From a virus, in IMG/VR virus record IMGVR_UViG_3300045049_000062, positions 1 through 57,420 of that record: a stretch of DNA of 57,420 nucleotides; one strand, 5' to 3'. This document shows positions 1,855-26,646 of this stretch, one piece after another (the first letter of the stretch is position 1; each line of letters starts with the position of its first letter). A program made the position numbers and the translations under genes. The notes below the pieces were generated by a model that saw nothing but the letters and a program-made list of their open reading frames with translations, was not told where the DNA came from and did not search any database.

Positions 1855-3032
1855 AAGATCTAGCAATACTTATTGATGCTGTCGCTAGTGGTAATGCTAT
1901 GGCTGGCGAATTGAAGTCGAGAGGGATAGAATGCTGGCATCTTTGGACTACCAAAGAGCGCAAGGAAAGCTCGGCCGGAATGTTCAATCCAGAATTCTAT
2001 ACACGTGAATACGTGATGAATAAGGAATGGATTGACATTAAAACTTCTGATCTGTGGGAAGTTAAGAGACGTATAGTAGCGATCATTCCAGGATCTGATA
2101 GCGGAGTAGCGAGCGCTGATATGTTGGCCGACAGCCTAGATGTTCAGCCAAGGAATTCAATACATACGTTAATGCGTAGACAGTCACGAGCGCAACTGAC
2201 TGGCTCTCTGGGAGAACCTGCCACTATTCATGAATTCGAATACTTCTTGATGAAGTATGGAAGAATTATAATCAAGCCAGAGCGTTCTAACGGCGGCTAC
2301 GAACGCGTCACAGTAGTTGAAAAACCTGAACAGATTCCTGCAGATACGACTGGCCTATTTGCACAACCTTTCTACTACGGAAACGAATATGGTGTGGATA
2401 CAGTTAGCTACAACGGCAGACATCGAATCGTTGCCATCTGGCGTTATAAAAAGAGATTGAATTCGATCATGCGTTGGCACGTGGAACTTGTTGATCCAGC
2501 GTGGGAACCAAGAATATGTGCGGACATCACCTACTATGTGACCAAGGTGTTGAACTGTGCAGACTATAGAGTTGGATGTACGCATACAGAAATAATGACC
2601 GCAGGAAATGACTTCTTCAACTTAATAGAGTCTAACTTCCGCAATCACAATGGTATGGACTATTTTGTGACAAAGGAGGCATGTGACCGTAATCAAGTCC
2701 AGTTGGGAATAGACGCGTATCTAGGTATTGATCGTGAATTCACCGACGACAAGCTAGCACCAAAGCCCCTGCAAAAGCGAGTCTCACAGTTGTTCTTCAC
2801 AAACACCGTTCCTGGGAAGAAGCGCAACTCCATTCCATGGGAGAACATACAGGGCTATCCGTGCGTTAAACGAATCTTCGCACCTCCTACAGAAGAACTT
2901 GCACACGACGATTTCACATATCGCAACATGACGTGCTCGATCCTTCTGATGCATCAAGATCCGAAGGAACTGATGAAGGCAGAACGATATCTTATGGAAC
3001 GCATGGCTCAGGAAGGACAGCGCTGCGTATGA
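1851..3032 (+). CDS. ATP-grasp family ligase (copy 1)
   Basis: 393 residues from the ATG at 1851 (ATGA overlap with the previous stop). ATP-grasp signatures are present: IIIKPERSNGGY at about 139-150 (ATP-binding Lys and glycine loop), a GNEYGVD segment at about 178-184, HTEI at 245-248, and the metal-binding IESNFR at about 259-264. ATP-grasp enzymes activate a carboxylate as an acyl-phosphate and join it to an amine, thiol or hydroxyl. The N-terminal third (IDAVASGNAMAGELKSRG) looks like the preceding nucleotide-fold domain. The downstream gene is a clear paralogue. In this setting the enzyme may ligate an amino acid to a small molecule or base; this is inference. Confidence 0.82.
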   Translation: MKDLAILIDAVASGNAMAGELKSRGIECWHLWTTKERKESSAGMFNPEFYTREYVMNKEWIDIKTSDLWEVKRRIVAIIPGSDSGVASADMLADSLDVQPRNSIHTLMRRQSRAQLTGSLGEPATIHEFEYFLMKYGRIIIKPERSNGGYERVTVVEKPEQIPADTTGLFAQPFYYGNEYGVDTVSYNGRHRIVAIWRYKKRLNSIMRWHVELVDPAWEPRICADITYYVTKVLNCADYRVGCTHTEIMTAGNDFFNLIESNFRNHNGMDYFVTKEACDRNQVQLGIDAYLGIDREFTDDKLAPKPLQKRVSQLFFTNTVPGKKRNSIPWENIQGYPCVKRIFAPPTEELAHDDFTYRNMTCSILLMHQDPKELMKAERYLMERMAQEGQRCV

Positions 3033-4192
3033 AGACCGTAATCATAGTCGATCCTATCGTGTCGGGTAACGGCTTTGCAGGACTGGCTAACAATCGTGGA
3101 TATAGGTGCGTTCAAGCATGGTCGTCGTTGGAACGTTTCAAGGACATGGTGAAGGCTATCAATTTCCCGCTGTACGACGATTTGTTGATTAACCACGCAC
3201 CTGCTGCCATCGAGTATCAGGTAGCAAAATATCACGACATTGCTGCCATAGTCCAGGGATCAGACACGGGCCTTGCGACTGCAGAGTTTCTTGATTCCTT
3301 GTTCAAGATCGGTAAACAAGCTTCACCTACACAAGGACAGTATCTTGCGCGCTACGATCGCTGGATGCTGACGCGTCTCCTAGAGGAACCGTGTGCATTG
3401 GCAGAATCAGAAAGCCAATTGTTAGAATTCAGGACAAAGCACGGAAAGATAGTTATCAAGCCCCGTAAGAGCTTCGGTGGTTACGATCGAGTAACTGTAT
3501 CTGACGCACAAAAGAACGATAAGATCCAACCTGTTTCTGGATTCTTCGCACAGCCTTTCCTGGAAGGCACAGAATACGCAGTTGACATGGTGTCTTATAG
3601 AGGACAGCACAAACTGTGTGCTGTCTGGCGCTACATAAAGTGGCCGAATTCGATTGCCAACCAAAGACAAGAACTGGTCATCTTTGATGAAGAGCCAGAA
3701 CTGTGCCAACGCATGTACGATTATGTAGCGAACGCGCTGGACAAATGTGAATATGCGTTTGGGGCTTCTCATTTCGAGATAATGGACACTTCAGATGGTG
3801 TGCGCTTAGTGGAAGCCAACTTTAGATCACACGGCCATGTGGATCTAAAGACTGCATGGCAGGTGTTTAAGCAGCCTCAGATGCTTGTGTGGGTTGACGC
3901 AATTCTGGAAGATAAGTTTGAACCTGGACTTCGATATGAGACACTCAAGAGATGCCATCGTATTTTAATCACCAATACGAAAGCACGTAAGGGTAAGGAC
4001 ATTGCTGAATTCGTAGCACATCTAGAGAAGCAAAAGACCACAAGCAAGATTTGGCTCCAGCAGTCTCCACACGAGGACATTCCGGTTGACGACTATACGT
4101 GGAGAAACATCATGATCAACGCTCATATCGTTGGAGCAGACAGGAATCTTCTACTTTTTGACGAACAGCACATGCGTAATCTTCTGGCTTAA
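3029..4192 (+). CDS. ATP-grasp family ligase (copy 2, paralogue)
   Basis: 387 residues from the ATG at 3029, which overlaps the upstream stop (ATGA). It aligns along its length with the preceding ligase: an IVDPIVSGNGFAGL start, IVIKPRKSFGGYDRV for the ATP-binding loop, a GTEYAVDMVSY segment, SHFEIMD, and LVEANFRSHGHVD for the Mg-binding acidic residues. The order and spacing of motifs match copy 1, so the pair arose by tandem duplication and then diverged. It is the last gene of the cassette, and a short gap precedes the next small gene. It is expected to be an ATP-dependent carboxylate-amine (or similar) ligase; the two copies may add two residues in sequence. Substrate unknown. Confidence 0.82.
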   Translation: MKTVIIVDPIVSGNGFAGLANNRGYRCVQAWSSLERFKDMVKAINFPLYDDLLINHAPAAIEYQVAKYHDIAAIVQGSDTGLATAEFLDSLFKIGKQASPTQGQYLARYDRWMLTRLLEEPCALAESESQLLEFRTKHGKIVIKPRKSFGGYDRVTVSDAQKNDKIQPVSGFFAQPFLEGTEYAVDMVSYRGQHKLCAVWRYIKWPNSIANQRQELVIFDEEPELCQRMYDYVANALDKCEYAFGASHFEIMDTSDGVRLVEANFRSHGHVDLKTAWQVFKQPQMLVWVDAILEDKFEPGLRYETLKRCHRILITNTKARKGKDIAEFVAHLEKQKTTSKIWLQQSPHEDIPVDDYTWRNIMINAHIVGADRNLLLFDEQHMRNLLA

Positions 4193-4651: not shown

Positions 4652-5155
4652 CTACGGAAGCCACGACAAGCGATTTGATACTACTGGACGCCGCATCTTC
4701 AAGAAGAGATAAGCGTCGAACAGTGTGTCAAACATTTTGGCCTTGAACGTCAGATACCACGCTACAACTAAAGGAGACCGTTCGATCCCGCCTTGACAGT
4801 GCACAAGGATATCTTGGCCGCTCTTGACTATCTGGTCGATAATGTTTGATGCATCGCCTATCTTATACAAAGAAGCCACAGCTCCGGTACGATCCAGCTT
4901 TGAGTTTGGTTTAGTAATAAGGATTGGAAGGAAATAGCACTGACCTTCGTACTCAGGACCATCCTCGTGCACACACATACGGGCTCCTCCGTAACCAGAA
5001 GCCACTTTCATGTCTCCTAAGTACAGATGCGGTACTATAAGACTAGCTACCCCACGATATGTTTCACGAACTGGTTCGCAATATTCGCAATACATATTAG
5101 GACCATCGGTCCACGTATTTGTATGCTGCCTCGAACAGATTACACATCGGTTCAT
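4652..5155 (-). CDS. Dual-specificity-type protein phosphatase with N-terminal zinc ribbon
   Basis: 167 residues. The ATG at 5155 overlaps the preceding gene's stop (ATGA on the minus strand). The active-site loop HCQGGIERSP at about 119-128 matches HCxxGxxRS of cysteine-based dual-specificity/tyrosine phosphatases, with nucleophile Cys120 and phosphate-binding Arg126. The segment VPHLYLGDMKVA near residues 41-52 resembles the common DSP start (I...LYLG). The N-terminus has CVIC and YCEYC pairs (C4, C7, C23, C26), a likely zinc ribbon. It could dephosphorylate a host protein, a nucleotide or a sugar phosphate. It is the last gene of the long minus operon. Confidence 0.78.
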   Translation of the reverse strand: MNRCVICSRQHTNTWTDGPNMYCEYCEPVRETYRGVASLIVPHLYLGDMKVASGYGGARMCVHEDGPEYEGQCYFLPILITKPNSKLDRTGAVASLYKIGDASNIIDQIVKSGQDILVHCQGGIERSPLVVAWYLTFKAKMFDTLFDAYLFLKMRRPVVSNRLSWLP

Positions 5156-5583
5156 GATGGAACCACCGCTTCCCACTTTGAGTCGCTAGAGTATCCTGGA
5201 TAGATTCGCACCACAAGTGAATTCGCGGCCTTGAATTGATAACTGTCTGGTGTTTCAGCCAGCAATCTTTCTACATCTTCTTTACGCGTTCGACAGTTAC
5301 CGTCTAGATATTTCTTGCCATCCGCGTTCGTCTTTGGCATATGTGGATCACCTATAAGGCCTCCGTGTGTCATGATTCCATTGTGGATGCCAATGATCCA
5401 GGCTTTGCCACCTGGACTTCCATTACGTTCTGGAAACCACTTATCATGCACTGAAATTTGTCCAGTTCTCCCGTCCCTCCACCATACTGCGTGACGACCA
5501 CACATGCACCACCGTGGTTTCATGTCTGCGTGCCCCGGAGCTACTACGTCACCGCATTCACCACAAAACATCAGTTTTGTCAT
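5152..5583 (-). CDS. Hypothetical zinc-ribbon protein
   Basis: 143 residues. N-terminal CGEC (7-10) and CMCG (26-29) pairs look like a zinc ribbon. The rest has no motif I know, though the segment WIIGIHNGIMTHGGLIGDPHMPKTN is glycine- and histidine-rich and could form an active or binding site. Coupled by ATGA overlap to the downstream phosphatase, which also has an N-terminal Cys pair set, so the two may act together. Confidence 0.65.
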   Translation of the reverse strand: MTKLMFCGECGDVVAPGHADMKPRWCMCGRHAVWWRDGRTGQISVHDKWFPERNGSPGGKAWIIGIHNGIMTHGGLIGDPHMPKTNADGKKYLDGNCRTRKEDVERLLAETPDSYQFKAANSLVVRIYPGYSSDSKWEAVVPS

Positions 5584-6350: not shown

Positions 6351-7127
6351 TTAGCCTCTTGATTTGTGTATTGCTTGCCGTTTTTCCAAGATCAGCAGCA
6401 GATAGTTGATACCATCCTTGATTGTTTCTTCCAATGCTTCTGTCGAATTGATATCGTCAGATACGTCCCAAATGTTCTTTCCCTTCTGTGTAACTTGTGT
6501 TACCAGCCGGTCGAATTTTCGCACTGTTGTAAACCAAGCACCAATGCCTCCGCGTTTACACCAACTAGCACCGTATTCGCCATCCTTCTGCTTCGCTAAC
6601 GCAACAAGCCCGTTCAGCATGTCTTTTAGTTCTGACCTTGCTTGCTCCAATTTGGTATAAGAGATCTCTACGTTATACATAGGAATCTCAAATTCACGTA
6701 CACGCGACCTGAAAAGGTTCACGATACTAAGCACTACAACCATGTCTTGCAGCCACCGTGTAGTCTCTGATTTTGGTTCTGGATAGATGAAAGCATTGAA
6801 GTCACGTTTCGCCATCATTTCTTCTAACGCGGTACACGCTGCAAGAACGTAAGCCCCTACCTTCTCTCCGTCTCCTTTAAAGAATAGTGTTATTCCTTCT
6901 GTCAGACGTTCGTCAACGATAGAATGCGCCATTGTGCGCATTGCATCGAAATCCGTTTTTGGCAATCCATCTACATTGCTGGCATACGTAAACTTATGGT
7001 CTGAAGCCATTGTGGATATGGTGTTTGTCGTCGGAATTGGGTTAGAAGTTGCGTCGGCAGCTTCTGCGAATCCTCGAACTACTGCGCCATTTTCTGGAGT
7101 GTTTATCGGTTGCTGTTGCATGTTCAT
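6351..7127 (-). CDS. Putative nucleotide-modification-associated (Nmad1/MazG-like) protein
   Basis: 258 residues. The C-terminal half contains YGASWCKRGGIGAWFTTVRKFDRL, then about 25 residues later EALEETIKDGINYLLLI. This resembles the all-alpha Nmad1 (former DUF1599) pattern, in which a YG.sW...G segment and R..DK..RL are followed by an acidic ES..D...D.aNY helix; the group is related to MazG NTP pyrophosphatases. Such proteins are found near phage DNA-modification enzymes and may hydrolyse unwanted dNTPs. It is coupled by ATGA overlap to the thymidylate synthase homologue, supporting a role in modified-nucleotide supply. Assignment is by eye and moderate. Confidence 0.52.
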   Translation of the reverse strand: MNMQQQPINTPENGAVVRGFAEAADATSNPIPTTNTISTMASDHKFTYASNVDGLPKTDFDAMRTMAHSIVDERLTEGITLFFKGDGEKVGAYVLAACTALEEMMAKRDFNAFIYPEPKSETTRWLQDMVVVLSIVNLFRSRVREFEIPMYNVEISYTKLEQARSELKDMLNGLVALAKQKDGEYGASWCKRGGIGAWFTTVRKFDRLVTQVTQKGKNIWDVSDDINSTEALEETIKDGINYLLLILEKRQAIHKSRG

Positions 7128-8419
7128 CCTTTAATTGGTTGAAGTTGGCTCATATCTATTGTCTGTTTCAGGCCACGTCTTTGGATCGATCGCGGATCTA
7201 ACGTCGCTCGCACAGGCCCTGCAACTTGCGGCAGGTCGTGTACAGTATCTCTGAATTCATTTCCTACTAGGGACACGTTCTTCCACACTGCCTTAACTTG
7301 TTCACTAAACGCAGCGCTACTCTGAGCGTTCATTGCGACTTCGATCTTAGTATTTCGTTTGTCGCACACGCGAATTAGCCATTGATACATGGCAATATTC
7401 CAATCATGCCATCTAAACCACGGACTTTCCTGATTCTCAGGAGCACGGAATTCACGTAGCCAGAACAAAGCGTTCTCCATGTTGTCATCGTTCTTGTAAC
7501 AGTTAAAGGCGTATGTGACTGGCTTGACTATGTACTTGAAGAAGTACGTACTGAAGTTGATGTTGAAGACATCGGTATAACTCGACATCAACAGTTGAAT
7601 ATCGTGATCGAATTTATCTTTCCATTCTTGTGCAGTGCCATCAGATTTATGACGCAGAGGACTAATCATTCCGAAATAAGGAAGGTCACGCGTTGGATCA
7701 TCGTTGTGAGCCTTCAACATGCGCTTGCTAACCTCGTTTAGTTCTAGATACAGATGACTGTTGGCCGCGATCTGTTCGTACGTACCTACTGCTAAATCAC
7801 ATGCCGATGCCACATACTCCTGCAGAATAGAAAAATGCACAACATTTGCCCCGGTCGCACCCCACACGATGTCGTTGCTTCTGTTGTATACGTTCATGTG
7901 TAAGCGACCATCCCCCATTGCGGCATCAAAGCTAGCAATCACGTTACACGGAACGTCTTTCCCATTCTTCTGGGCAGCAGGAATGTCAATTGTTGGATCC
8001 CACATTCCAAGAACTACTCGTCGATCCTCATTATTTGCACGAAGTGCCGGTATGATATAGTCGTCTAGCTGGTCGTATCCAAAATGATTTGCCCACCTAT
8101 GCCCATACCCTCCGTGAAACGTCTTTCCATCGTCAGAGAAGTTTCCAATTTGGCTTGAAAAGTAAGACACACTTTCAACATCATGTTGTCCTGCCAGCAT
8201 CCATAGACTTTCGAACAAATGGAATGCAGGATTGGCGTCACGGATTGGATCGAATGAGACTCTGTACTGAGGTCTTGTCCACATGATTGTGGCTGGACCC
8301 TTAAATCTACGTACTGGCCCATTACGACTAGCTGTTTCGATATAGTTGCCGGTCTTATTCAGTTCTGTAAGAACAGCTTGCAGCCCACGATCTGGGGTTG
8401 TTCCCTTCACGACTTTCAT
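7124..8419 (-). CDS. Thymidylate synthase family protein, possible dUMP hydroxymethylase
   Basis: 431 residues, longer than typical bacterial ThyA (about 264). Family landmarks in order: FHLFESLWMLAG (67-78, with the conserved Glu), YGHRW (105-109), the catalytic Cys158 in DVPCN, RSNDIVWG (180-187) for phosphate binding, Asn192 in GATGANVVHFS where uracil-specific enzymes keep Asn, and NSHLYL (220-225). It uses dUMP with methylene-tetrahydrofolate, making either dTMP or, in phages with modified thymine, 5-hydroxymethyl-dUMP. The neighbouring hypermodification-type genes favour hydroxymethylation, but motif reading cannot separate the two activities. The extra C-terminal region is unassigned. 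Confidence 0.85.
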   Translation of the reverse strand: MKVVKGTTPDRGLQAVLTELNKTGNYIETASRNGPVRRFKGPATIMWTRPQYRVSFDPIRDANPAFHLFESLWMLAGQHDVESVSYFSSQIGNFSDDGKTFHGGYGHRWANHFGYDQLDDYIIPALRANNEDRRVVLGMWDPTIDIPAAQKNGKDVPCNVIASFDAAMGDGRLHMNVYNRSNDIVWGATGANVVHFSILQEYVASACDLAVGTYEQIAANSHLYLELNEVSKRMLKAHNDDPTRDLPYFGMISPLRHKSDGTAQEWKDKFDHDIQLLMSSYTDVFNINFSTYFFKYIVKPVTYAFNCYKNDDNMENALFWLREFRAPENQESPWFRWHDWNIAMYQWLIRVCDKRNTKIEVAMNAQSSAAFSEQVKAVWKNVSLVGNEFRDTVHDLPQVAGPVRATLDPRSIQRRGLKQTIDMSQLQPIKG

Positions 8420-8428
8420 TATTTCGCC

Positions 8429-8944
8429 TTAGTTCATGTTTATGTGTTGGACTACAGTCTTAGCGTAGTTCTCTAACGCTTCGAGCGTGCTGTACCCTCT
8501 AAGATTGAAGGTATATCCATCACGAGATGGTTCCTCAAACAACTTCGCAGTATCTGGGAATCGCGATTGTTCTGGGGTGATTGTATTCATCCAGATCTTT
8601 ACATGGTTGAACTGGAACGGCAATTCTGTGCGAATGGCCCAATCGTACGTTCTACGAGTTCGTTCTGTGGGATTTACGAAGTCGACGATTACTGTCTTGT
8701 TTAGGTTCCACATATTTTCACCACTGACTACTGTCGGTGGTTCTGCCAGCGCGATAGCAGCTAGACGCCCCATTCGCCACGCTTGTATGGCTCGATCATC
8801 ATCTGTGAATTTCAAATCTGTGCTAATAGAAGAGCGCACCACATCCGCATTAATGCGTGCCCCTCCAATCAATTTATGAATCATGTCTCCCAAAGTGGTC
8901 TTTCCACTTCCGGGCAAACCAAAGAGTGTGATTACAGTTTTCAT
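8429..8944 (-). CDS. Adenylylsulfate-kinase-like P-loop kinase
   Basis: 171 residues. Walker A is GLPGSGKT at 9-16. Then come NADVVR (32-37), DLKFTDDDRAIQAWRMGRLA (43-62), VDFVNPTERTRR (87-98) and a late SRFPDTAKLFEEP (127-139). This order follows APS kinase (CysC): GxxGSGKST, DGDxxR, lGFsxxDRxexxRRxgevA, FxSPxxxxR and the late GF(T)xxxxPYExP lid. APS kinase phosphorylates adenylyl sulfate to PAPS, the sulfate donor of sulfotransferases, and a sulfotransferase lies in this operon at 13490-14332. The alternative is a 5-hmdUMP or 5-hmdU-DNA kinase, since phage base-modification loci also use P-loop kinases. Confidence 0.7.
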   Translation of the reverse strand: MKTVITLFGLPGSGKTTLGDMIHKLIGGARINADVVRSSISTDLKFTDDDRAIQAWRMGRLAAIALAEPPTVVSGENMWNLNKTVIVDFVNPTERTRRTYDWAIRTELPFQFNHVKIWMNTITPEQSRFPDTAKLFEEPSRDGYTFNLRGYSTLEALENYAKTVVQHINMN

Positions 8945-8964
8945 GTTCTTACTTTACACATTGA

Positions 8965-9204
8965 TTATTCTTGATCTTCGCGACTTACTGTGATGCAAAC
9001 TTGCCTAGTGCCATCTGCCTTGCGATCGATAAAGACGACATCCACCTTCCTCTTGTCACCTTCTGGTAAATGGACTTCTATATTTGATGGTTTGGGATTA
9101 CGTATTTCCTCTTCCATGCGTGTGATTAGACGCTCCAACGCTCCGTTGTCGCGACCGTAATATGCGTTCATTGCTTCCGTAAGATTACGGCTCTTTTGAT
9201 CCAT
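8965..9204 (-). CDS. Small hypothetical protein
   Basis: 79 residues: an N-terminal helical, charged half (ALERLITRMEEEI) and a C-terminal strand-rich half (RKVDVVFIDRKADG, RQVCITVSRE). No recognised family. It lies between the APS-kinase-like gene and a small Cys-containing gene in the minus operon. Confidence 0.55.
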   Translation of the reverse strand: MDQKSRNLTEAMNAYYGRDNGALERLITRMEEEIRNPKPSNIEVHLPEGDKRKVDVVFIDRKADGTRQVCITVSREDQE

Positions 9205-9240
9205 GTACTTCTGCCTTTGTTGGTGACACTGTGAATCAAA

Positions 9241-9495
9241 TTACGTGCCGTTGTTTGCTTCTAGCAGAAGACGGAGCGCCTCTTTTCCAGCGTGCTGTCC
9301 GCACAGATGTTTCCCATTTATGACATAGGAGCTGCTCTGTGCACAAAGATTAGATCCACGAGTACGCCAATTGTCATGTGTTGTTTTCTCTGCTTCGCAT
9401 CTTGGAGTGGGTGGTCTTGGAACTGGTGCTATTAGCTGTTTGATTTCAGTCTTAGGAACCTGCATAGCGTGATCGCGGTTCGCCTTCTCCTCCAT
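9241..9495 (-). CDS. Small hypothetical Cys/His protein
   Basis: About 84 residues if started at the ATG at 9495; an ATG at 9465 would reduce the overlap with the gene upstream from 44 to 14 bases. Neither has a strong ribosome-binding site. The C-terminal part (NLCAQSSSYVINGKHLCGQHAG) has two Cys and a His that might bind metal. Function unknown. Confidence 0.5.
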   Translation of the reverse strand: MEEKANRDHAMQVPKTEIKQLIAPVPRPPTPRCEAEKTTHDNWRTRGSNLCAQSSSYVINGKHLCGQHAGKEALRLLLEANNGT

Positions 9496-10423
9496 ACAAT
9501 CTACAGATCTTGTCGTATTCGCATAGGCAGTTTGAGACATTTGGCATGCTGAGGTCTGCAAACCCTGTTCTGTAGTCATCTGTCCACCACTTTGGGTTGA
9601 TAAGTTCTTTTGCTCTTTCATTCATTAGTCCCCTAAGTTTAATCATGTACGGGTTGAGTTTTGCACCGCGAATCTCTGCCCTTTTGCCGCCACTAATTAA
9701 GCGAGCCATTCCGCGAGTAGTGCCAGGACCTGGACTGGTATACGTATGAACGTCAGGTGCGCGTCCTAACCATCTGTTGGAGTATGACAAATCTACAGCT
9801 ACTTGATAGGCCATGAACGCTCCCCACCCATGACACTTTGTCATCTGTCCAACAAAAGCTTCCATCGACGTATGAGCTGCTTTGTTCAATTTTTCCCGAT
9901 TACGCCACAGTCCTTCTATGCCGAAGTACGGAATGTAGTAGACCTTGCGGGTATCTGGAACCTTTGCCCCTTGTGGAAACACTGAGTTTACTATGTATGC
10001 TCCTGTGATTACTTTCTCTTTGCGATCTGCACGTTCGGCCAATACACGATACAGTTTTGCTGCACTATAGAGTTCGTAGGGCCATGCACGTTCTTTGAGA
10101 CACTCGGCCAACGTGTCAGGCCAATTGATCAAACGTGAAATGGCTAGCATTAGCCATAGATTCTCGTTTTTCTCAAATGGTTTGATTACGTTGTTGATGA
10201 TCCATTCGCTGACCGTATCCAGTTCTCTGTAGATGTTGCAGAACCTGTAGTTGCGCAACATTGGATCCTTAGTCCATGGTCGTTCTTTCTTCAGAACGAA
10301 ACGCCGTAGATATATCTTGTGCCGCTCAATCCAAAATTTGACAATGCTATCGAGCTGATTTTGTTCTTCTGGTTTGAATAGAAAGTCATCAGTGTTATCA
10401 AACAACTCAACTTGCTTTGACAT
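9452..10423 (-). CDS. DNA thymidine hypermodification protein (aGPT-PPlase / 5-hmdU kinase helical-domain superfamily)
   Basis: 323 residues, nearly all helical. Recognisable blocks of the alpha-glutamyl/putrescinyl-thymine pyrophosphorylase superfamily: a WIERHKIYLRR helix, RPWTKDPML, YRFCNIYREL (59-68), LINWPDTLAE (98-107), CHGWGAFMAYQ (197-207), GPGTTRGMARL (232-242), CLCEYDK (299-305) and GEGEPRSRY (312-320). In phages such as M6, ViI, phiW-14 and SP10, members of this superfamily work on 5-hydroxymethyl-dU in DNA, where the hydroxymethyl is activated and replaced by an amino acid or amine. Which clade (kinase-associated or transferase) applies here cannot be decided by eye. The operon also encodes a thymidylate synthase homologue and a P-loop kinase. 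Confidence 0.82.
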   Translation of the reverse strand: MSKQVELFDNTDDFLFKPEEQNQLDSIVKFWIERHKIYLRRFVLKKERPWTKDPMLRNYRFCNIYRELDTVSEWIINNVIKPFEKNENLWLMLAISRLINWPDTLAECLKERAWPYELYSAAKLYRVLAERADRKEKVITGAYIVNSVFPQGAKVPDTRKVYYIPYFGIEGLWRNREKLNKAAHTSMEAFVGQMTKCHGWGAFMAYQVAVDLSYSNRWLGRAPDVHTYTSPGPGTTRGMARLISGGKRAEIRGAKLNPYMIKLRGLMNERAKELINPKWWTDDYRTGFADLSMPNVSNCLCEYDKICRLYGGEGEPRSRYAGS

Positions 10424-11159
10424 ATCCCTGCTCTTTTTGATACGCAGCCAGAAGGGACGGTGTTCCCAAGTTAACGAACGTCCCGTCTAGTTCGTAGCTT
10501 TCAGCTTCTATTTGCGTGTTGATAACATCGCTCAACTTCAGTTCCTTTGAGCCGCATTCTTGTTGTGCGTCGTAGACTGCGAATCTGAATAGATCTATTG
10601 ATCTGAACCAATATGCTCCCACATTAATCATGTCGCCAGCGGCTACACCACCTTCTGTTATCCGAACTGTTCCCTTTCTTGAGACAGTTGCTGCATCCGG
10701 CGTGTCGTGCTGTGCGGTAATCGTATACACGACTGCGTCCGTTTCCTTTAGAACTGCATGCTGTCTGATGGCGTCTAATTGTGATTTACCGTTGTTCATC
10801 CTTACGAAGCAGTCACTATCTAGTAACAACAAGCTGTCGCTTCCACGCCAGCTTAGAGTAGCCGCGACTGCACTCCATACAGGCCCTGCATTGACTAGAT
10901 CTGGCACGTAGATGGTCTCTAACCAGTCGCAGTGACTTCGTTCTACATGTTTACGAAACGCTGACTGTGTTACGAATGACACTAGATGTGAACTTCCTAC
11001 AAATCCTAATCCCAGCTTGCGTGCCACGTACTCATACATACAGGATACATGGTCGTATGTAGACGCATTTTCGTTAACCGGGATAAATGGCTTTGGCACT
11101 GTATGTCCGTCTCTAACGAACCTAGAACCAGCACCTGCCCCCATCAACATGATGATCAT
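10407..11159 (-). CDS. Nucleotidyltransferase (sugar-phosphate NTP transferase-like)
   Basis: 250 residues. Start chosen at 11159, where ATGA overlaps the upstream stop. The N-terminus MIIMLMGAGAGSRF...VPKPF is the GxGxR...PKP signature of nucleoside triphosphate-sugar nucleotidyltransferases, and LLLLDSD (110-116) supplies the metal-binding Asp. Such enzymes condense an NTP with a phosphorylated sugar, choline or similar group. The GAYWFRSIDLF and FVNLGTPSLLAAY segments near the end fit the family's second half. With the adjacent NTase-kinase fusion it probably makes an activated donor for the glycosyltransferases upstream. Sugar and nucleotide are unknown. Confidence 0.8.
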   Translation of the reverse strand: MIIMLMGAGAGSRFVRDGHTVPKPFIPVNENASTYDHVSCMYEYVARKLGLGFVGSSHLVSFVTQSAFRKHVERSHCDWLETIYVPDLVNAGPVWSAVAATLSWRGSDSLLLLDSDCFVRMNNGKSQLDAIRQHAVLKETDAVVYTITAQHDTPDAATVSRKGTVRITEGGVAAGDMINVGAYWFRSIDLFRFAVYDAQQECGSKELKLSDVINTQIEAESYELDGTFVNLGTPSLLAAYQKEQGYVKAS

Positions 11160-12637
11160 ACTTCTTTCACCCATTCTTCGTAGAGCTCTTCTGCCTTGTT
11201 TAGAAGACGTCGAACTCGTTTCGCATTGTCCCTGTGCAGCGGCAGCATACTGTAGAACAGCAGAGCAGTCGCACCCAACAGGACTGTACGCTCTAGGCCG
11301 TAGACCTTTGTCACATACTCGTCGATTCTGCGACCAATGAAGACCGCTGCGTTCGCTTCCTTTTCGTTCGGAGGCATGTTCGCAACGATCAAATCGTAAC
11401 ACGCATATGTCGAGTGGTAGATCTTTGCTACATCGTACAGCTGACTGCCGAGTATGGCACCCCGAGGATCGATCACGTGGATGTTGTCGGTCCGTTGGTC
11501 ATACAGAATGTTCGAGAAGCAGAGGTCGCCGTGCACATACGAGAGAGTGTGCTCGTAGTTTTGTTGGCGCATCCATGAGATAACATGTTTGGCGTGTACC
11601 TTGTATGGCTCACGCAGTAGCTCGACTCGCCCCTCGCTCTTCGTCAACAGCATTGGATCGTCGAACACCCAATCGTTGGTATTGGCTCGGAACTCACGTC
11701 TCGCAGTCTCGAGGAACAACGATAGCTTGTTCCAGATGTTGTTCCACCACTCCAATGGATGACGACCGTACACCAGCAGTTCTGCCAACGACGGAGCAGC
11801 AATGTATTCCATTTCATAGGAATTGACGTCCACCTGACGGACACGAGGTGTGTACATCTGGAGAGCTGGTGGGATGTTCGCGTACCATCCGGTCTCTGCG
11901 GCAATGCGATCCGCGGTACTCTTCTTCACCAGATTGCCTCGTGCGTTCAACGAGATCGTGTTGAAGTGCCGTGTTGACAACAGATTGCGTTTGGAGCGGT
12001 AGTAGGTGCTCAGGTGGCCGAAATCGAACCAATTGCTCTCGTCGACTTGGACCTCGAACTTCGAAGCCTCCGCCATCGCCTTGTCGTACGCATACACAGC
12101 CGAGTCTGTGATCAGGTCTTCCACCTTCACGAGATAGCTGAACTTGCCTACGAACACACCACGTTCACCACGCTGCCAGTTGAATGGTGTGTACTCCTCG
12201 CTTGTGATCGCAATCCCGGACGGGCCACCCAGAACTGAAGACGACAGCAGTGTGTCTCCGTTCAGAACGTGGATCATCCACTGATCGTCGATGAACAGGC
12301 TTCTCTCTGCGCCACAAAGTGGCGTGTCGAGCCAAAACTTGAAGATGTCGACCAGCTTGTCGTGCGTCTCCTTCATATCGGCTGTGTCCATCTCGTAGAT
12401 TGACACTTCCTTGTTCATGTAGTTGCCGACGATGTCTGTGATCATTGGCTCTGTGCCCGGAGGCACAGCAATGAACACGTGACGCATTCCCTGAATCTTG
12501 AAGGCTTCCTCCACCTGCTTACGCAGCAAAGTATCTGGCCCAATCGGCACAGCACACGCCGGGATCTTGGCACCGAACTCTGCTTGCAGTTCGGGGTCTG
12601 CGTATGCTGCGCTGAGAATAAAGAGTACGCTCTTCAT
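11156..12637 (-). CDS. Nucleotidyltransferase-like domain fused to APH/choline-kinase-like domain
   Basis: 493 residues from the ATG at 12637 (ATGA overlap). The N-terminal half has an NTase layout, with HVLNGDTLL (123-131) for the metal Asp, but lacks a clear GxGxR loop at the start (MKSVLFILSAAYADPE), so this half may be inactive or divergent. A linker with FDFGHLSTYYRSKRNLLSTRHFN is typical of capsule-type NTase-kinase fusions. The C-terminal half is aminoglycoside-phosphotransferase-like: VHGDLCFSNIL (368-378) as catalytic loop and VIDPRG (388-393) as metal-binding DxR/G. It may phosphorylate and activate a small alcohol or sugar. Adjacent genes are a second NTase and a glycosyltransferase. 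Confidence 0.78.
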   Translation of the reverse strand: MKSVLFILSAAYADPELQAEFGAKIPACAVPIGPDTLLRKQVEEAFKIQGMRHVFIAVPPGTEPMITDIVGNYMNKEVSIYEMDTADMKETHDKLVDIFKFWLDTPLCGAERSLFIDDQWMIHVLNGDTLLSSSVLGGPSGIAITSEEYTPFNWQRGERGVFVGKFSYLVKVEDLITDSAVYAYDKAMAEASKFEVQVDESNWFDFGHLSTYYRSKRNLLSTRHFNTISLNARGNLVKKSTADRIAAETGWYANIPPALQMYTPRVRQVDVNSYEMEYIAAPSLAELLVYGRHPLEWWNNIWNKLSLFLETARREFRANTNDWVFDDPMLLTKSEGRVELLREPYKVHAKHVISWMRQQNYEHTLSYVHGDLCFSNILYDQRTDNIHVIDPRGAILGSQLYDVAKIYHSTYACYDLIVANMPPNEKEANAAVFIGRRIDEYVTKVYGLERTVLLGATALLFYSMLPLHRDNAKRVRRLLNKAEELYEEWVKEV

Positions 12638-13500
12638 AGTAGCTCGTTCTTGTTCCTTGTTGTGTCGATGCCCCACTTCTTGAGGAGGGCTGCGGTCATC
12701 TTGTTCTCGCTTTCACGAGACGCTTCTTTGTTGAAGGCTTTGCGCCAAGCGACACGGACTTCCTTTCGTGGGATGCTGTCCTTGTATGCTTTCTGCTGCA
12801 CTTCAACGATGCCTGGATACCGCTTGGCAAGCTTCTCAGCATCACGATCGGACTTCTCGATTGTGCGCTCTTCGGTCATGCCACCGTGCTTAGCGAATTG
12901 CTGATCGACCAGCAGACGATAGCTCACGATGTTGCGGTATCCAAGCTGCAGGAGTTGCAGAGTGTAGTCCATGTCCTCGCGAGTACCCATGGAACCGAGC
13001 CTGCACTTCTTCTGGATGATCTTCGTTTGATAACCAAGCACGTACATCATGCGCGTGTTGATCTGCCAGCGGAAGTTCTTCTCCTGCGCTCCCATGCGAG
13101 CAGCAATGCCCGCGTGTGCGTAGTGTTCCAACGCCCGCTCGAAGTTGAGCCACGAACGATTGCCACCTTCGTGGTCGTTCGGAATGGTGATCAGCTTCTT
13201 CTCGGCGAAGGTAGGTCGATAGCAGAAGCGGAGATCATCATCCAGCATGACCATACGGTCGTACCGACATTGCTCAATGATCCATGCACGTTTCTGTGCG
13301 ATGTTCTTCACATCGTCCGGCTGGATCAGCACTGGAACCTCGTACTTGCGCTCCAGTTTCTTTGCTTCTTCCTTGACACACACTAGGACTACACGGCCCT
13401 TCTTCACACCACTACTAAGTGGAATGCGGGCAAGCGTTGTCTGTGCTTTCAACCGTCTGTAAGTTGGGATGTAGATGATAGTGTCATCCTTATATGCCAT
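12634..13500 (-). CDS. TET-associated-glycosyltransferase-like (TAGT) glycosyltransferase, copy 1
   Basis: 288 residues. GT-A features: IPTYRR near the start, VVLVCVKEE, a VMLDDDLRF metal/nucleotide-sugar motif (84-92), and TREDMDYTLQLL for the catalytic acidic region. The HYAHAGIAARMGAQ and INTRMMYVLGY segments match the TAGT family, which adds sugars to hydroxymethylated bases in phage DNA. The start at 13500 overlaps the sulfotransferase stop by 11 bases. Two further related enzymes lie upstream in the operon. The expected acceptor is a hydroxymethylated base in phage DNA; a protein or surface glycan is possible. Confidence 0.75.
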   Translation of the reverse strand: MAYKDDTIIYIPTYRRLKAQTTLARIPLSSGVKKGRVVLVCVKEEAKKLERKYEVPVLIQPDDVKNIAQKRAWIIEQCRYDRMVMLDDDLRFCYRPTFAEKKLITIPNDHEGGNRSWLNFERALEHYAHAGIAARMGAQEKNFRWQINTRMMYVLGYQTKIIQKKCRLGSMGTREDMDYTLQLLQLGYRNIVSYRLLVDQQFAKHGGMTEERTIEKSDRDAEKLAKRYPGIVEVQQKAYKDSIPRKEVRVAWRKAFNKEASRESENKMTAALLKKWGIDTTRNKNELL

Positions 13501-14332
13501 GTTTCTTCCTCAGTTCTTCGAGCTGACGCAGATAGCCGTCAGCACGGTCCATCTGCTCTGCGGCAGCCTCGCGCCAGTATCCACATTGTTCAGGCACAGA
13601 GAGATTGCGAACATCTCCACATGGATCGTACTTATACCATGGATGGGTGTTTCGCTCGATCACGTTCAGATGACGACCACGCGCGATTTCTGCTGTGGCT
13701 GGCATCTGATACCCGAACAGGATGAAGTCCATCTCATAGATATCATGGATGCGTTCCAACACATCCTCAGCGATATCCGACAGGCCAAGGCGCGACGGTA
13801 GCTTGTATTTACCGTGTTCCTTTTCGTGTCCGAGTTCCTTGTACTCGATTCCGGCTAGACGGCACACATTTCGCCAGTCACGGTACAGATTCTCGTGCCT
13901 TCCGATGTAGTCAGCAATACACTTGTTCCCCTCGTAGAAGAAGTAATACTGCGGGCAGAAGTGCGTGAACTCCCAGTCGTAGCGCACGTTGGCACGCGTC
14001 AGGTGCTTGCGCGCCCACTCGTTGAACTCCGCATTGACTTGATCTGGATGCTGCCTGCGATATTCGTCCCATGCGCTGAACAGACGATCGTACGGATGAC
14101 GCACGAATCCGAAGGTGAAGTACTCCTTCAGATTGATGCGCGGCCACACTGTCTTGAGCTCTGCGGCTGGCACATGGAACAGTTCCACAACGCGATCGAT
14201 TCCAGCGAAGTACCGCTGGTACTCCAGTTGGTATTCGTTGGTGTCGTACTCGAAGAGAGCTCGACGGATGCTCGTTCCTGCTGCCTTCGGGTTATGCAAG
14301 AACATGAACTTCTTGTGGTCACTGATAATCAC
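13490..14332 (-). CDS. Carbohydrate-type sulfotransferase
   Basis: 280 residues, GTG start at 14332 with AAGAGG seven bases upstream. The N-terminal FMFLHNPKAAGTSIRRAL carries the 5'-phosphosulfate-binding loop (K16, G19-T20-S21), and FGFVRHPYDRLFSAW (75-89) is the 3'-phosphate-binding motif RxPxxRxxS. This is the arrangement in HNK-1/dermatan-type carbohydrate sulfotransferases (Sulfotransfer_2). They move sulfate from PAPS to a sugar hydroxyl. It lies between two glycosyltransferase genes, overlapping both neighbours (11 and 14 bases), and an APS-kinase-like gene is in the same operon. A sulfated glycan product is likely; whether on DNA, virion or host is unknown. Phage-encoded examples are unusual. 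Confidence 0.84.
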   Translation of the reverse strand: MIISDHKKFMFLHNPKAAGTSIRRALFEYDTNEYQLEYQRYFAGIDRVVELFHVPAAELKTVWPRINLKEYFTFGFVRHPYDRLFSAWDEYRRQHPDQVNAEFNEWARKHLTRANVRYDWEFTHFCPQYYFFYEGNKCIADYIGRHENLYRDWRNVCRLAGIEYKELGHEKEHGKYKLPSRLGLSDIAEDVLERIHDIYEMDFILFGYQMPATAEIARGRHLNVIERNTHPWYKYDPCGDVRNLSVPEQCGYWREAAAEQMDRADGYLRQLEELRKKHGI

Positions 14333-15221
14333 TGAGGAGCCTCTTCAAATATGCCTTGTCTTTGCCTTGGAACTTGAGCTCCTCGGCCAACAGTTTCTTG
14401 CCCTTCTCCATGAACTTGGCACGCTTCTCCGGATCGAGATCCAATCCAGGCGCATTCATGAAGTCCACACGCAGAAACGACGCAACGTGCTGAGCCTGCT
14501 TGCCGCGCTTGATGAGACCTGGAAACAATACCATCTGTCTCAGGAAAGAGTCCAGCACATCTTCCTTCTTGCGTTGTGAGCCAGCACCGCTCTTGTCCTT
14601 CGGATCGAAGGCAGTACTCCACAGAAAGCGGTAGTCGATCACCGACTTGTATCCGGCAGTCAACACATACAGATTGTGGATGGTGTCAATGCCCCAGATG
14701 TTCCGTGTAGCTGCCTTATCCACCAGACGCAACAGCACATCCACATCGTAGCCAGCAAGACACACGCACTTGTGATTGTAGCGTTGCATCCCGTACTGTG
14801 CGATAGCATCCTTGTGTCGGAAGTAAGGACCAGCCCCGACCATCGAGTGCTCCTTGAAGAGCTTCGGTGCGTCTTTCAACAGCCACTTATCGGTAATCGA
14901 AGGATCGTCACGACCAGATAGGTGCTTCTTCTGTTCCTCGTCCCATGCAAACAGGCCGAGATCGTCTTCCAGCACCAGAGCGTACTTGCCGCCTTGACGT
15001 TGATGATGCTCGAACGTCTTGTAGCGTTTACGTTCCAAGTGAATGTCGTCCGACGTACCAAGGAACGAGAGCCCCTTACCGTAGTCTTCTGCCTTGTGCG
15101 CTTTGATCTCTGAACGTGGGCACACCATCGTGATGTGCTTGCGTGCTTCTGGTGAGACGTACTTCAACGTCTTCTGTTTACCTACTCGTCCTCGAGTTAG
15201 GAGGTAGATTCCATAGCTCAT
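14319..15221 (-). CDS. TAGT-like glycosyltransferase, copy 2
   Basis: 300 residues from the ATG at 15221, which overlaps the HNH-like gene's stop (ATGA). It shares the layout of the other two glycosyltransferases: an IYLLTRGRVG start, HITMVCPRSE (29-38), then a YALVLEDDLGLF motif (80-91) with the acidic pair of GT-A enzymes. The C-terminal 100 residues (KKEDVLDSFLRQM...) diverge, and the DYTLQLL motif of copies 1 and 3 is replaced by IWGIDTIHNLYVL. It probably uses a nucleotide sugar; acceptor unknown. Divergence from copies 1 and 3 suggests it attaches a different sugar or position. Confidence 0.68.
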   Translation of the reverse strand: MSYGIYLLTRGRVGKQKTLKYVSPEARKHITMVCPRSEIKAHKAEDYGKGLSFLGTSDDIHLERKRYKTFEHHQRQGGKYALVLEDDLGLFAWDEEQKKHLSGRDDPSITDKWLLKDAPKLFKEHSMVGAGPYFRHKDAIAQYGMQRYNHKCVCLAGYDVDVLLRLVDKAATRNIWGIDTIHNLYVLTAGYKSVIDYRFLWSTAFDPKDKSGAGSQRKKEDVLDSFLRQMVLFPGLIKRGKQAQHVASFLRVDFMNAPGLDLDPEKRAKFMEKGKKLLAEELKFQGKDKAYLKRLLSDYQ

Positions 15222-15724
15222 GCGTAACTCCCGACCCAACCTTTGTGATGTTCTTTCTTACCTCCGCATACCGCTTTCATGCAGGAGTAGTCGAGTCCAT
15301 AACGACGGCAGAATCTCTTGAGATTGTCTCCAATGTAAGTGTTCCACCTTGGTGAAGTCACTTTGAACATCCGCGCTAGCTTCCGACCAATCTCGATGTT
15401 GCCACCGTTGGAAGCGCGTTCTGCCAAGTTTTGTTCCATCGGAATGAAACGACAGTTGCCCCATTCGTAGTTGCCAACGTCGCCGATCCTGCCCATCTGA
15501 AACTTGCCTTTAGACTTTCCGATCTGATGCGGCTTCTGTACGTCGGCACGTTTAGCGAGTTTCATGTATTGACGGAATGTCAGTAAACATTTGCGACCGT
15601 GAAGGTTTGCGTTACCTCTCAGGTCCCGCCACTTCCTACGCCATAGCTTCCAGTCTTCACCATCGAATCCAAGTTCAACGAGCGTAGCACGAGCCTCGTT
15701 CTCAAGAAGCCAACGATCTCTCAT
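15218..15724 (-). CDS. Putative HNH-like homing endonuclease
   Basis: 168 residues, coupled by ATGA overlaps on both sides. The central region KGKFQMGRIGDVGNYEWGNCRFIPMEQN resembles the C-terminal part of phage HNH endonucleases, where RIDN..GY..GNCRW....EN supplies catalytic and metal-binding residues. The C-terminal part (KVTSPRWNTYIGDNLKRFCRRYGLDYSCMKAV) looks like a helix-turn-helix DNA-binding repeat of the type found in homing enzymes. A free-standing homing nuclease inserted between two glycosyltransferase genes would explain its lack of pathway logic. The full HNH motif is not clear, so this is moderate confidence. Confidence 0.6.
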   Translation of the reverse strand: MRDRWLLENEARATLVELGFDGEDWKLWRRKWRDLRGNANLHGRKCLLTFRQYMKLAKRADVQKPHQIGKSKGKFQMGRIGDVGNYEWGNCRFIPMEQNLAERASNGGNIEIGRKLARMFKVTSPRWNTYIGDNLKRFCRRYGLDYSCMKAVCGGKKEHHKGWVGSYA

Positions 15725-16485
15725 ACAAGGCCTCCGATCTTAGCTGCGCCACGCCAACTGACTCTGGTGTTGGAGTCTGGGTGCGCTGCTGAAGGCGGTT
15801 TCTCCTTGACAACGTCAGGGTGCAACTTCAGAAGCTTTCGGAAGGACTTCTGTGCCGCTTCGCGTGTGCGTTCATTGCTCAAGCCTCCAGGTGCGTCCGC
15901 CTTACGTTGGGCAACGGCCATGTCGTAGGTCAAAGCAAGACGAACACCACCTTTCAGAAGCTGAAGTGTGTAGTCAATGTCTTCGTAGTAGCGGAGACGA
16001 CCCCACACGATCTTCTTCACGGCCTTCTGAGACATACCGAAAGCGAAGCCAAGGTGCGAGTTCTCTTTGACTCCGCCCTTCGGTGCAAACGCCTTGGTGC
16101 CGAGACCGACACACGCATACTTCTTGCAGAGTGCAGGAAGTGTCTTGCTCCAGAACTCCTTCGTCTTCTCTTTCTCCGAAGACGCGACAGTGTGCTTCTC
16201 ACCGTTGAAGACGTAGAAGTACAGATCGTCGTCGAACATGAAAGTGAACTTGTGCAACTTGCCGAGCACAGTCATCATCCACTCACGCTTCTTGTACAGA
16301 GAAGTGATGAACTCCGGTTGCGGATACACGTTCACAGTAGGGTAGTTCTTTTTGAGTGCTTTCACCTCTTCAGCAGGGCACACGAGTGTGATGTGCTTGT
16401 GCAGGTATTTCGGCAAGCGCTCGACTGTCAATTGACTATTCGTTCGGCCGCGAGTTGGTATCAGGATGTGATAAGAAGCTGTCAT
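15721..16485 (-). CDS. TAGT-like glycosyltransferase, copy 3
   Basis: 254 residues from the ATG at 16485; the open frame extends further upstream but would overlap the zinc-knuckle gene much more. Motifs: ILIPTRGRTNSQLT (7-20), HITLVCPAEEV, KKREWMMTVL, TFMFDDDLYF (81-90) and YYEDIDYTLQLL. It is closest to copy 1 in layout (IPT.R, DDDL, E/D-DYTLQLL) and matches the TAGT pattern. Like copy 1 it may glycosylate hydroxymethylated bases in DNA. The three copies differ enough to imply distinct donors or acceptors rather than recent duplication. Confidence 0.74.
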   Translation of the reverse strand: MTASYHILIPTRGRTNSQLTVERLPKYLHKHITLVCPAEEVKALKKNYPTVNVYPQPEFITSLYKKREWMMTVLGKLHKFTFMFDDDLYFYVFNGEKHTVASSEKEKTKEFWSKTLPALCKKYACVGLGTKAFAPKGGVKENSHLGFAFGMSQKAVKKIVWGRLRYYEDIDYTLQLLKGGVRLALTYDMAVAQRKADAPGGLSNERTREAAQKSFRKLLKLHPDVVKEKPPSAAHPDSNTRVSWRGAAKIGGLV

Positions 16486-16870
16486 GATAGTGGCAAAAAT
16501 ACGGACAGATGCCTTCGTCGTGATGACCACGGCAGCGCGGACATGTTCCTGGAGTTGGCTCGGACTCTTCTTCATTTTTCAGAGAACAATCCTCTGTCTT
16601 GTGCAGTCCAAGACAATGATCGCAACACGGTTCATTGTTCCACACCATTCCATTGTCAAGATTTGGATCTTCTGGTGGGCCGAACACGATACGATCGTCT
16701 TGGTAGGGCTCGTCCTTCTTCTGATAGTCCTCGATCTTTGGCTCAGGTTCGTTGAACGGTTGTCCGTACTGAGCAGCAACTATCATATGCGCAAACCATA
16801 GATCGTGGGCATTCCTCCAACGCAGAAGTTCTTGCACAGATCTTAAACCGTTTCTTGTAGGGCTAGTCAT
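16436..16870 (-). CDS. Protein with twin zinc-knuckle-like motifs
   Basis: 144 residues. Two identical-spacing Cys/His clusters are visible: C83-x2-C86-x3-H90-x4-C95 and C110-x2-C113-x3-H117-x4-C122, one residue shorter than the retroviral-type CCHC knuckle. Extra Cys/His follow (C126, H127, H129). The linker is acidic and Pro-rich. Zinc knuckles often bind single-stranded nucleic acid. It overlaps the glycosyltransferase downstream by 50 bases, and its ATG at 16870 overlaps the previous stop (ATGA). Function unknown. Confidence 0.62.
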   Translation of the reverse strand: MTSPTRNGLRSVQELLRWRNAHDLWFAHMIVAAQYGQPFNEPEPKIEDYQKKDEPYQDDRIVFGPPEDPNLDNGMVWNNEPCCDHCLGLHKTEDCSLKNEEESEPTPGTCPRCRGHHDEGICPYFCHYHDSFLSHPDTNSRPNE

Positions 16871-20317: not shown

Positions 20318-20785
20318 ATGTACTACGAAGACGGTCATCGATTGCCCACCGTAACGGATAAGATGATACGCGGCTTCTTTGGTCGCTATCGCTTTCTATC
20401 AAACTTTCATCTGTGTCCTGTGTATGTGCAAGGAATAACGTATCCATCGTCAGAACACGCATACATGGCAATGAAGACGTTAAAGATCATGCAACGTCGT
20501 GAGATTTCAAAGCTAGAAACTCCTAGAGAAGCCAAGATCTTCGGAACAAGTGCTAGAATAAAACTGCGCCCCAATTGGGATGAAATACGTTTAGATAAAA
20601 TGTATGATGTCCTAAGGTGTAAATTTGTACAGAACAAAGAGTTGCGCCTCCTTCTGGCGGGAACTGCTGACCGCTATCTAGAAGAAACCAACGACTGGAA
20701 CGATACGTTTTGGGGCGTCTGTGACGGTGTAGGTCAAAACAATTTGGGTAAGACACTTATGCGTCTTCGGAAAGAATTATCATGA
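20318..20785 (+). CDS. NADAR-family ADP-ribose glycosidase
   Basis: 155 residues, full-length for the NADAR (YbiA-like) fold. Family blocks: FLSNF (26-30), TYPSSEHAYMAMK (41-53, with the conserved Glu46), KMYDVLRCKFVQN, and near the end WGVCDGVGQNNLGKTLMRLR, which matches the W.....G.N.LG..LM..R core. NADARs cleave N-glycosidic bonds; some act on riboflavin intermediates and others remove ADP-ribose from guanine in DNA, reversing DarT-type toxins. In a phage the latter (counter-defence) is more attractive. The start is preceded by an AGGA element. Substrate not proven. Confidence 0.82.
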   Translation: MYYEDGHRLPTVTDKMIRGFFGRYRFLSNFHLCPVYVQGITYPSSEHAYMAMKTLKIMQRREISKLETPREAKIFGTSARIKLRPNWDEIRLDKMYDVLRCKFVQNKELRLLLAGTADRYLEETNDWNDTFWGVCDGVGQNNLGKTLMRLRKELS

Positions 20786-21087
20786 CATTAGTAGCTGAAG
20801 CAAGATTGCGTGTTCTGCGCTACAATCACAGATGGCGCACGCCTCCGGGGCACGAGATCCGTTACGGTGGCGACAATCCTTTGGAACTTGTATACGAAGA
20901 GAAACTACAGCAGTTTATAGACGGTCAATGGCAAGATGTTCCGGTAGTGGTAGAAGAAAGGATCCCAGAAGATCCACGTGAATTAAAGCGCAGAAGAGAG
21001 CGAGAAGAAAGACGCATTCATATGGATAGGCTGAATGCAGAACTTAAGAAGTCTGCACAAAGAACTTCTAGTACAGGTCCAGGGTAA
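20782..21087 (+). CDS. Hypothetical charged protein
   Basis: 101 residues. An N-terminal beta-rich part (LRVLRYNHRWRTPPG, LELVYEEKLQQFIDGQWQDVPVVVEER) is followed by a long Arg/Glu-rich helix. No recognised family. ATGA coupling with NADAR upstream and TAATG with the QueC-like gene downstream places it in a tight three-gene group. Confidence 0.6.
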   Translation: MTLVAEARLRVLRYNHRWRTPPGHEIRYGGDNPLELVYEEKLQQFIDGQWQDVPVVVEERIPEDPRELKRRREREERRIHMDRLNAELKKSAQRTSSTGPG

Positions 21088-24552: not shown

Positions 24553-24556
24553 AAGA

Positions 24557-26639: not shown

Positions 26640-26646
26640 GGCTAGC

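Follow-up and report, generated by a model that had tools for sequence, protein, structure and literature searches.

Can a phage attach sulfate to the sugars on its own DNA? The question is raised by a 57,420-base stretch of viral DNA (IMG/VR record IMGVR_UViG_3300045049_000062, positions 1 to 57,420; hereafter the window), a fragment of a giant-phage genome. Its minus strand carries genes for a carbohydrate-type sulfotransferase (SULF) and for a P-loop kinase related to adenosine 5'-phosphosulfate (APS) kinases (KIN), in the company of three TAGT-type glycosyltransferases, a thymidylate-synthase homologue and HMUDK_hel, a protein of 5-hydroxymethyldeoxyuridine (5-hmdU) hypermodification. Proteins and polysaccharides often bear sulfate esters; we know of none on DNA, and DNA sulfation, if true, would be a new class of nucleic-acid modification. 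CysC-type kinases produce 3'-phosphoadenosine 5'-phosphosulfate (PAPS), the donor for such sulfotransferases. From gene content and sequence we hold, with modest confidence, that the cluster represents a branch of phage thymidine hypermodification that works by glycosylation and sulfation, in which the terminal sugar would be sulfated with PAPS made by the phage's own KIN. The two central genes are:

13490-14332, minus strand: SULF, predicted PAPS-dependent carbohydrate-type sulfotransferase (Sulfotransfer_2, PAPS motifs, Foldseek)
8429-8944, minus strand: KIN, lid-less APS-kinase-related P-loop kinase, candidate PAPS-forming enzyme (APS_kinase 4.1e-7, APS contacts, AlphaFold)

The sulfotransferase

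The SULF gene starts with GTG and encodes a protein of 280 residues. A Pfam profile search assigned this protein to Sulfotransfer_2 over positions 4-252 of the 252-position profile (E = 7.8e-22, 79 bits, cut-off 22), and it was matched at 1.6e-37 by PHROG 3347, annotated 'Galactose-3-O-sulfotransferase'. Both PAPS-binding elements could be located, the 5'-phosphosulfate loop (FLHNPKAAGTSI; HNPKAAGTS) and the 3'-phosphate binding motif (FVRHPYDRLFSAW), and residues H13, N14, P15, K16, G19, T20, V77, R78, P80 and R83 were invariant between the window protein and seven cluster-linked relatives. Its AlphaFold model (predicted local distance difference test, pLDDT, 81) gave weak Foldseek matches, the best with an E-value of 0.045, yet the top 14 were all sulfotransferases or the related retinol dehydratase, with heparan sulfate 6-O-sulfotransferase in first place. 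A sequence query of the PDB with SULF returned no match, and scans using the window SULF or HMUDK_hel as a single query returned no close relatives, so that alignment queries were required.

The SULF gene shares 14 bp with the TAGT gene upstream of it and 11 bp with the one downstream. An earlier sequence-only reading of this stretch had described a sulfotransferase with both PAPS motifs lying between glycosyltransferase genes, and the profile match and the flanking TAGT genes bear this out. SULF is thus a Sulfotransfer_2 protein, predicted to transfer sulfate from PAPS to a sugar hydroxyl. A related sulfotransferase gene adjoins a gene resembling UDP-galactopyranose mutase at 8632-10891 of the 230 kb contig L250, a record devoid of HMUDK_hel and TAGT.

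The APS-kinase-like protein and its pairing with the sulfotransferase

KIN comprises 171 residues and was matched above the Pfam cut-off by APS_kinase (4.1e-7; 30.6 bits, cut-off 21.1) and by the generic family AAA_33 (3e-7). For the KIN family members of relatives APS_kinase was the best Pfam match, with E-values down to 1.2e-16 and 57.1 bits for the orthologue in Ralstonia phage RSL1. All scores remained below every NCBIfam equivalog cut-off (23.8 bits for the window protein and 62.2 for the best relative tested, against 138.7 for apsK). In the Mycobacterium tuberculosis CysC structure, whose numbering served as our reference, APS is bound by the core residues Asp480, Arg483, Phe492 and Arg497 and by the lid residues Lys562 and Phe576 (PMC4373884). 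The equivalents of the four core residues in KIN are D34, R37, F46 and R51, and these were kept almost without exception among 197 homologues (D34, R37 and R51 in 197/197 each, F46 in 196/197). In a phylogenetic tree KIN grouped with CysC and apart from the M6-type kinases with a support of 100/100, and the PF18748 profile of the M6-type 5-hmdU DNA kinase found no match in KIN.

Pairing with SULF was assessed among 88 HMUDK_hel loci, counted after removal of known duplicate contigs. KIN and SULF occurred together in 9 of the 88 and were both missing from 79, and neither was found alone (Fisher 1.8e-12, a p-value that ignores shared ancestry). The genes for KIN and SULF overlap directly in loci L075, L081, L083 and L086 and in L275-L280. 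The sequence-only reading had placed an APS-kinase-like protein in the same minus-strand gene run as SULF and had set this type against 5-hmdU or deoxynucleoside monophosphate kinases. The placement is confirmed and the APS-kinase type supported: KIN neither groups with the latter kinases nor lacks the APS-binding residues, as judged from the separation in the tree, the conserved contacts and its occurrence within HMUDK_hel loci only together with SULF.

The name given to HMUDK_hel in Pfam, together with the order of the genes, had also raised the possibility that KIN supplies the catalytic part of a 5-hmdU DNA kinase split over two proteins. This candidate was rejected because KIN shows no significant similarity to M6 gp54, falls in a separate clade and tracks SULF, and because 36 loci with HMUDK_hel, TAGT and thymidylate synthase have no P-loop kinase nearby.

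In loci L265-L270 a canonical CysC with its lid lies near SULF, beside the same type of HxGH nucleotidyltransferase that accompanies many KIN homologues, which suggests that lid-less KIN and canonical CysC could be interchangeable. The CysC gene is followed directly by that of the HxGH protein in L265 (13063-14420), L266 and L268-L270, with the sulfotransferase about 2.4 kb away; such loci are candidate compact modules for sulfate activation, with the HxGH protein perhaps standing in for ATP sulfurylase. Lid-less KIN homologues that form one protein with an HxGH nucleotidyltransferase (GRxQPxHxGH, ISATxxR) or lie beside it have a wide distribution in phages, marine Pelagibacter and SAR86 (L286-L365; L168-L247), and frequent neighbors of the bacterial homologues resemble, by eye, the dimethylsulfoniopropionate demethylase DmdA and methylene-tetrahydrofolate reductase. 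A domain of about 80 residues with the motif IRYNTxSDGxTxxWRII is fused to the C-terminus of KIN in RSL1-like phages (L010, L009, L011 and L091) and is encoded by a separate small open reading frame beside KIN in other viruses (L236, 9844-10206; a neighbor cluster of nine loci).

As regards the supply of sulfate, no ATP sulfurylase (PF01747) was found in the related phage records, and APS would therefore be derived from the host. The genome of Cupriavidus necator, which contains locus L286, carries two strong full-length APS_kinase matches, and the host may therefore supply PAPS as well. We regard the synthesis of PAPS by KIN itself as fairly likely, and place it no higher because the CysC lid has been lost.

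The gene cluster and the predicted pathway

From about position 18436 down to 4652 all annotated genes of the window, including a primase gene, lie on the minus strand, and their spacing suggests a co-transcribed unit. Apart from SULF and KIN, the cluster comprises:

15721-16575, minus strand: TAGT1, predicted DNA-base or DNA-linked-sugar glycosyltransferase (Pfam TAGT 1.1e-36, PHROG 842 4.2e-43)
15218-15724, minus strand: HNH endonuclease between TAGT1 and TAGT2 (PHROG HNH families 1.5e-11)
14319-15239, minus strand: TAGT2, divergent TAGT glycosyltransferase (Pfam TAGT 3.2e-4, below cut-off; PHROG 842 1.4e-32)
12634-13500, minus strand: TAGT3 glycosyltransferase (Pfam TAGT 5.5e-20, PHROG 842 9.7e-48)
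11156-12676, minus strand: two-part protein, nucleotidyltransferase-like at the N-terminus (by eye) and APH/choline-kinase-like sugar kinase at the C-terminus (APH 4.2e-5, Choline_kinase 9.6e-4)
10407-11159, minus strand: sugar-1-phosphate nucleotidyltransferase-like protein (NCBIfam sugar-1-phosphate nucleotidylyltransferase 3.8e-6 and MurU 1.6e-4, both below cut-off)
9452-10423, minus strand: HMUDK_hel, M6 gp55 homologue, 5-hmdU hypermodification protein (PF18723 1e-40)
8965-9204, minus strand: small protein of 79 residues (no family match)
7124-8419, minus strand: thymidylate-synthase homologue, predicted deoxyuridine monophosphate (dUMP) hydroxymethylase (Thymidylat_synt 1.9e-18, PHROG 5131 2.3e-96)

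The sequence-only reading had proposed a hypermodification context, and the presence of the thymidylate-synthase homologue, HMUDK_hel and three TAGTs makes the case stronger than could be seen at that stage. The active-site strings of the thymidylate-synthase homologue (DxPCN, NRSND and GAN) are those of M6 gp58, and HMUDK_hel is 35% identical to M6 gp55, with many positions invariant across four phages. The cut-off of the TAGT profile PF20691 was passed by TAGT1 and TAGT3 and missed by TAGT2. Orthologues of TAGT1 are 63-72% identical in the clusters of L009, RSL1 and L011; the 3' end of the TAGT2 gene overlaps the start of SULF, and its orthologues in L009 and RSL1, 57-62% identical, likewise abut SULF. 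L009 shares the HNH gene (68%), which RSL1 and L011 lack at the same site; this gene is probably a mobile insertion, since L009 has it and RSL1 does not. The APH and Choline_kinase matches cover residues 353-421 of the two-part protein, whose position in the cluster is kept in L009, RSL1, L011 and L088. For the neighboring nucleotidyltransferase-like protein, which had no Pfam match, the reading frame opens upstream at 11402 and the conserved part begins at the ATG at 11159. AmgK and MurU form an aminosugar salvage pair, and because the APH-type kinase and the weak MurU match recall this pair, the cluster might attach an aminosugar to the DNA.

The same minus-strand run is closed by a gene for a dual-specificity phosphatase-like protein (4652-5176, minus strand; 3.2e-12). 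Elsewhere in the window the plus strand encodes a NADAR-domain protein (20318-20785; 1.9e-24) followed by a QueC-like protein matched in its C-terminal part only (21087-21719; 3.2e-9), and, at 885-4192, a tandem GNAT acetyltransferase and two weakly ATP-grasp-like proteins, which may form a further small-molecule or modification module.

The cluster is kept in eight other viral contigs, namely L009, L010, L011 and L088 and, more loosely, L012, L089, L091 and L251. We took L010 to be the cultured Ralstonia jumbo phage RSL1, whose published genome measures 231,255 bp (PMC8504454). The closest relative by HMUDK_hel is L088, a contig of 248,884 bases (80% identity). In L009, RSL1 and L011 the genes follow the order kinase, TAGT, APH, nucleotidyltransferase, TAGT1, TAGT2, sulfotransferase, HMUDK_hel and thymidylate synthase; the window and L088 hold the same families in a partly different order. 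In the window, L009, RSL1, L011, L012 and L088, a TAGT gene lies directly against SULF or overlaps it. Neither PF18748 nor the amino-acid:DNA transferase family PF18724 was found in the records of RSL1 and six relatives; the same record search recovered PF18748 from M6, and the PF18724 model, for which there was no such control, matches M6 gp51 directly. Each RSL1-related record tested contained one APS_kinase, and none was present in M6 or in two records with HMUDK_hel, TAGT and thymidylate synthase.

Among the 88 HMUDK_hel loci, TAGT (45 loci) and the M6-type kinase (38 loci) were mutually exclusive, with an overlap of 0. HMUDK_hel occurs either with an M6-type P-loop kinase, usually together with an amino-acid:DNA transferase, or with TAGT and no such kinase (L088-L167). 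The 36 loci with HMUDK_hel, TAGT and thymidylate synthase mentioned above have no P-loop kinase nearby and no sulfotransferase either, so the TAGT branch would need no 5-hmdU kinase. These two exclusive settings suggest that HMUDK_hel may act as a DNA-reading adaptor, the kinase in its Pfam name being misleading for the TAGT branch, and this exchange of partners offers a gene-content rule predicting the chemistry of a 5-hmdU phage.

A pathway can be proposed on this basis. The thymidylate-synthase homologue, judged by active-site motifs identical with those of M6 gp58, would convert dUMP to 5-hydroxymethyl-dUMP and lead to 5-hmdU in DNA. HMUDK_hel, working with the TAGTs instead of an M6-type kinase and amino-acid transferase, a partnership to which the exchange across the 88 loci points, would place a sugar on 5-hmdU; the APH-type kinase and the nucleotidyltransferases would provide the activated sugar, and further TAGTs would extend it. 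SULF, coupled to TAGT2, would then move sulfate from PAPS to the DNA-linked sugar, and KIN, which keeps the phosphosulfate-binding residues and has lost the lid, would convert host APS to PAPS. The end product would be DNA bearing sulfated glycosyl-5-hmdU, plausibly protected against host nucleases.

For RSL1-like jumbo phages as a group we propose only tentatively that their DNA carries sulfate esters on 5-hmdU-linked sugars with PAPS provided by their own lid-less APS kinase. This hypothesis is directly testable because RSL1 is a cultured and published phage with the same cluster. If true, it would extend nucleic-acid chemistry, suggest that strongly anionic groups placed in the major groove help to evade host defence, and provide new sulfotransferases for DNA labelling.

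Competing explanations and known systems

Several observations weigh against the proposed pathway. Those that concern KIN would fit a protein that makes no PAPS and acts on another substrate, such as an activated sugar, another nucleotide-linked anion or 5-hmdU in DNA, while SULF draws on host PAPS; CysC-like Cj1415, for instance, is a cytidine diphosphoramidate kinase. The CysC lid is absent from KIN together with the equivalents of Arg559, Lys562 and Phe576, a conserved R-F-x-D-T standing in its place, and the lost segment is the one that carries the ATP-stacking arginine and the lysine contacting the gamma-phosphate. A fold search with the AlphaFold model of KIN (pLDDT 84) gave gluconate kinases scores as good as those of APS kinases. 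KIN homologues often lack SULF as a neighbor: SULF was nearby in 14/80 viral loci selected by KIN and missing from 66/80, and it was nearby in 0/80 bacterial loci so selected; in most of these loci KIN is joined to an HxGH nucleotidyltransferase or has one as its neighbor. Even the exceptionless pairing of KIN and SULF among HMUDK_hel loci is tempered by the shared ancestry of several of the nine contigs, which include several related jumbo phages as well as the shorter contigs L012 and L251. A different substrate for KIN is nevertheless the less probable option, though one to be taken seriously, given the conserved phosphosulfate and adenine contacts, that same pairing, the lid-bearing CysC occupying the same place near SULF and the HxGH protein in L265-L270, and the 36 loci that do without a kinase; it would in any case be compatible with the proposed role of SULF.

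The acceptor is the other point at issue. Some phages that lack HMUDK_hel and TAGT carry related sulfotransferases, for example in the sugar-biosynthesis cluster of L265 and beside the mutase-like gene of L250, so that other acceptors of sulfate are possible, and Sulfotransfer_2 enzymes act mostly on glycans. SULF and the glycosyltransferases could accordingly modify a virion glycoprotein or the host lipopolysaccharide or capsule, blocking superinfection or altering adsorption, with the DNA-modification genes as mere neighbors. This is the main rival, but we consider it unlikely in view of the position of SULF among TAGT, HMUDK_hel and thymidylate-synthase genes in nine contigs, several times in direct overlap with a TAGT gene, and of the link between TAGTs and DNA-base glycosylation. 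Sulfation might also activate instead of decorate, a sulfate ester on the 5-hydroxymethyl group serving as leaving group for another nucleophile, much as M6-type phages pass through a phosphorylated intermediate (PMC6449724). The clusters with SULF indeed have neither M6-type kinase nor amino-acid:DNA transferase, but SULF resembles carbohydrate sulfotransferases, and the 36 loci that have neither sulfotransferase nor kinase imply that the glycosylation route needs no such activation, which makes this role very improbable. Sulfation of a sugar on 5-hmdU in DNA is the simplest reading and the one that we favor.

In the literature searched we found no published link between a sulfotransferase and phage DNA modification, though key papers of the field may contain an earlier mention. 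The sulfotransferases of other phages (PHROG 3347; AAY80_051 of Stenotrophomonas phage DLP6) share the Sulfotransfer_2-type motifs of SULF. In DLP6 (KU682439), a second cultured phage, in contrast to the window, the related genes are scattered over the genome, with TAGT at 24235-24852, an APH-like protein at 26229-27062, the sulfotransferase at 38223-38837 and a fusion of KIN to an HxGH protein at 129043-129774, and there is no HMUDK_hel. With CysC APS kinases and PAPS synthases KIN has in common the P-loop, the D-x-x-R motif and the phenylalanine and arginine contacts to phosphosulfate and adenine, and it differs from them by the absence of a lid segment of about 16 residues bearing the K-G-L-Y-K-K motif.

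The DNA of Pseudomonas phage M6 contains 5-(2-aminoethyl)deoxyuridine (5-NedU) made from 5-hmdU (PMC6449724). Two features of this amino-acid type of hypermodification (M6/ViI) recur in the window, a thymidylate-synthase homologue whose active-site motifs are the same and, close to it, HMUDK_hel, whereas the M6 P-loop 5-hmdU kinase (PF18748) and amino-acid:DNA transferase (PF18724) have no counterpart among the window operon proteins scanned; the window instead has TAGTs, enzymes for activated sugars, an APS-kinase-like protein and a sulfotransferase. The TAGT of phage T6 is held likely to be responsible for adding the second glucose to glucosyl-5-hydroxymethyldeoxycytidine in DNA (PMC13390438). 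The window TAGTs belong to the same PF20691 and PHROG 842 families and would be expected to act likewise on DNA bases or DNA-linked sugars, but the base is predicted to be 5-hmdU and not 5-hydroxymethyldeoxycytidine, and three TAGTs are accompanied by a sulfotransferase.

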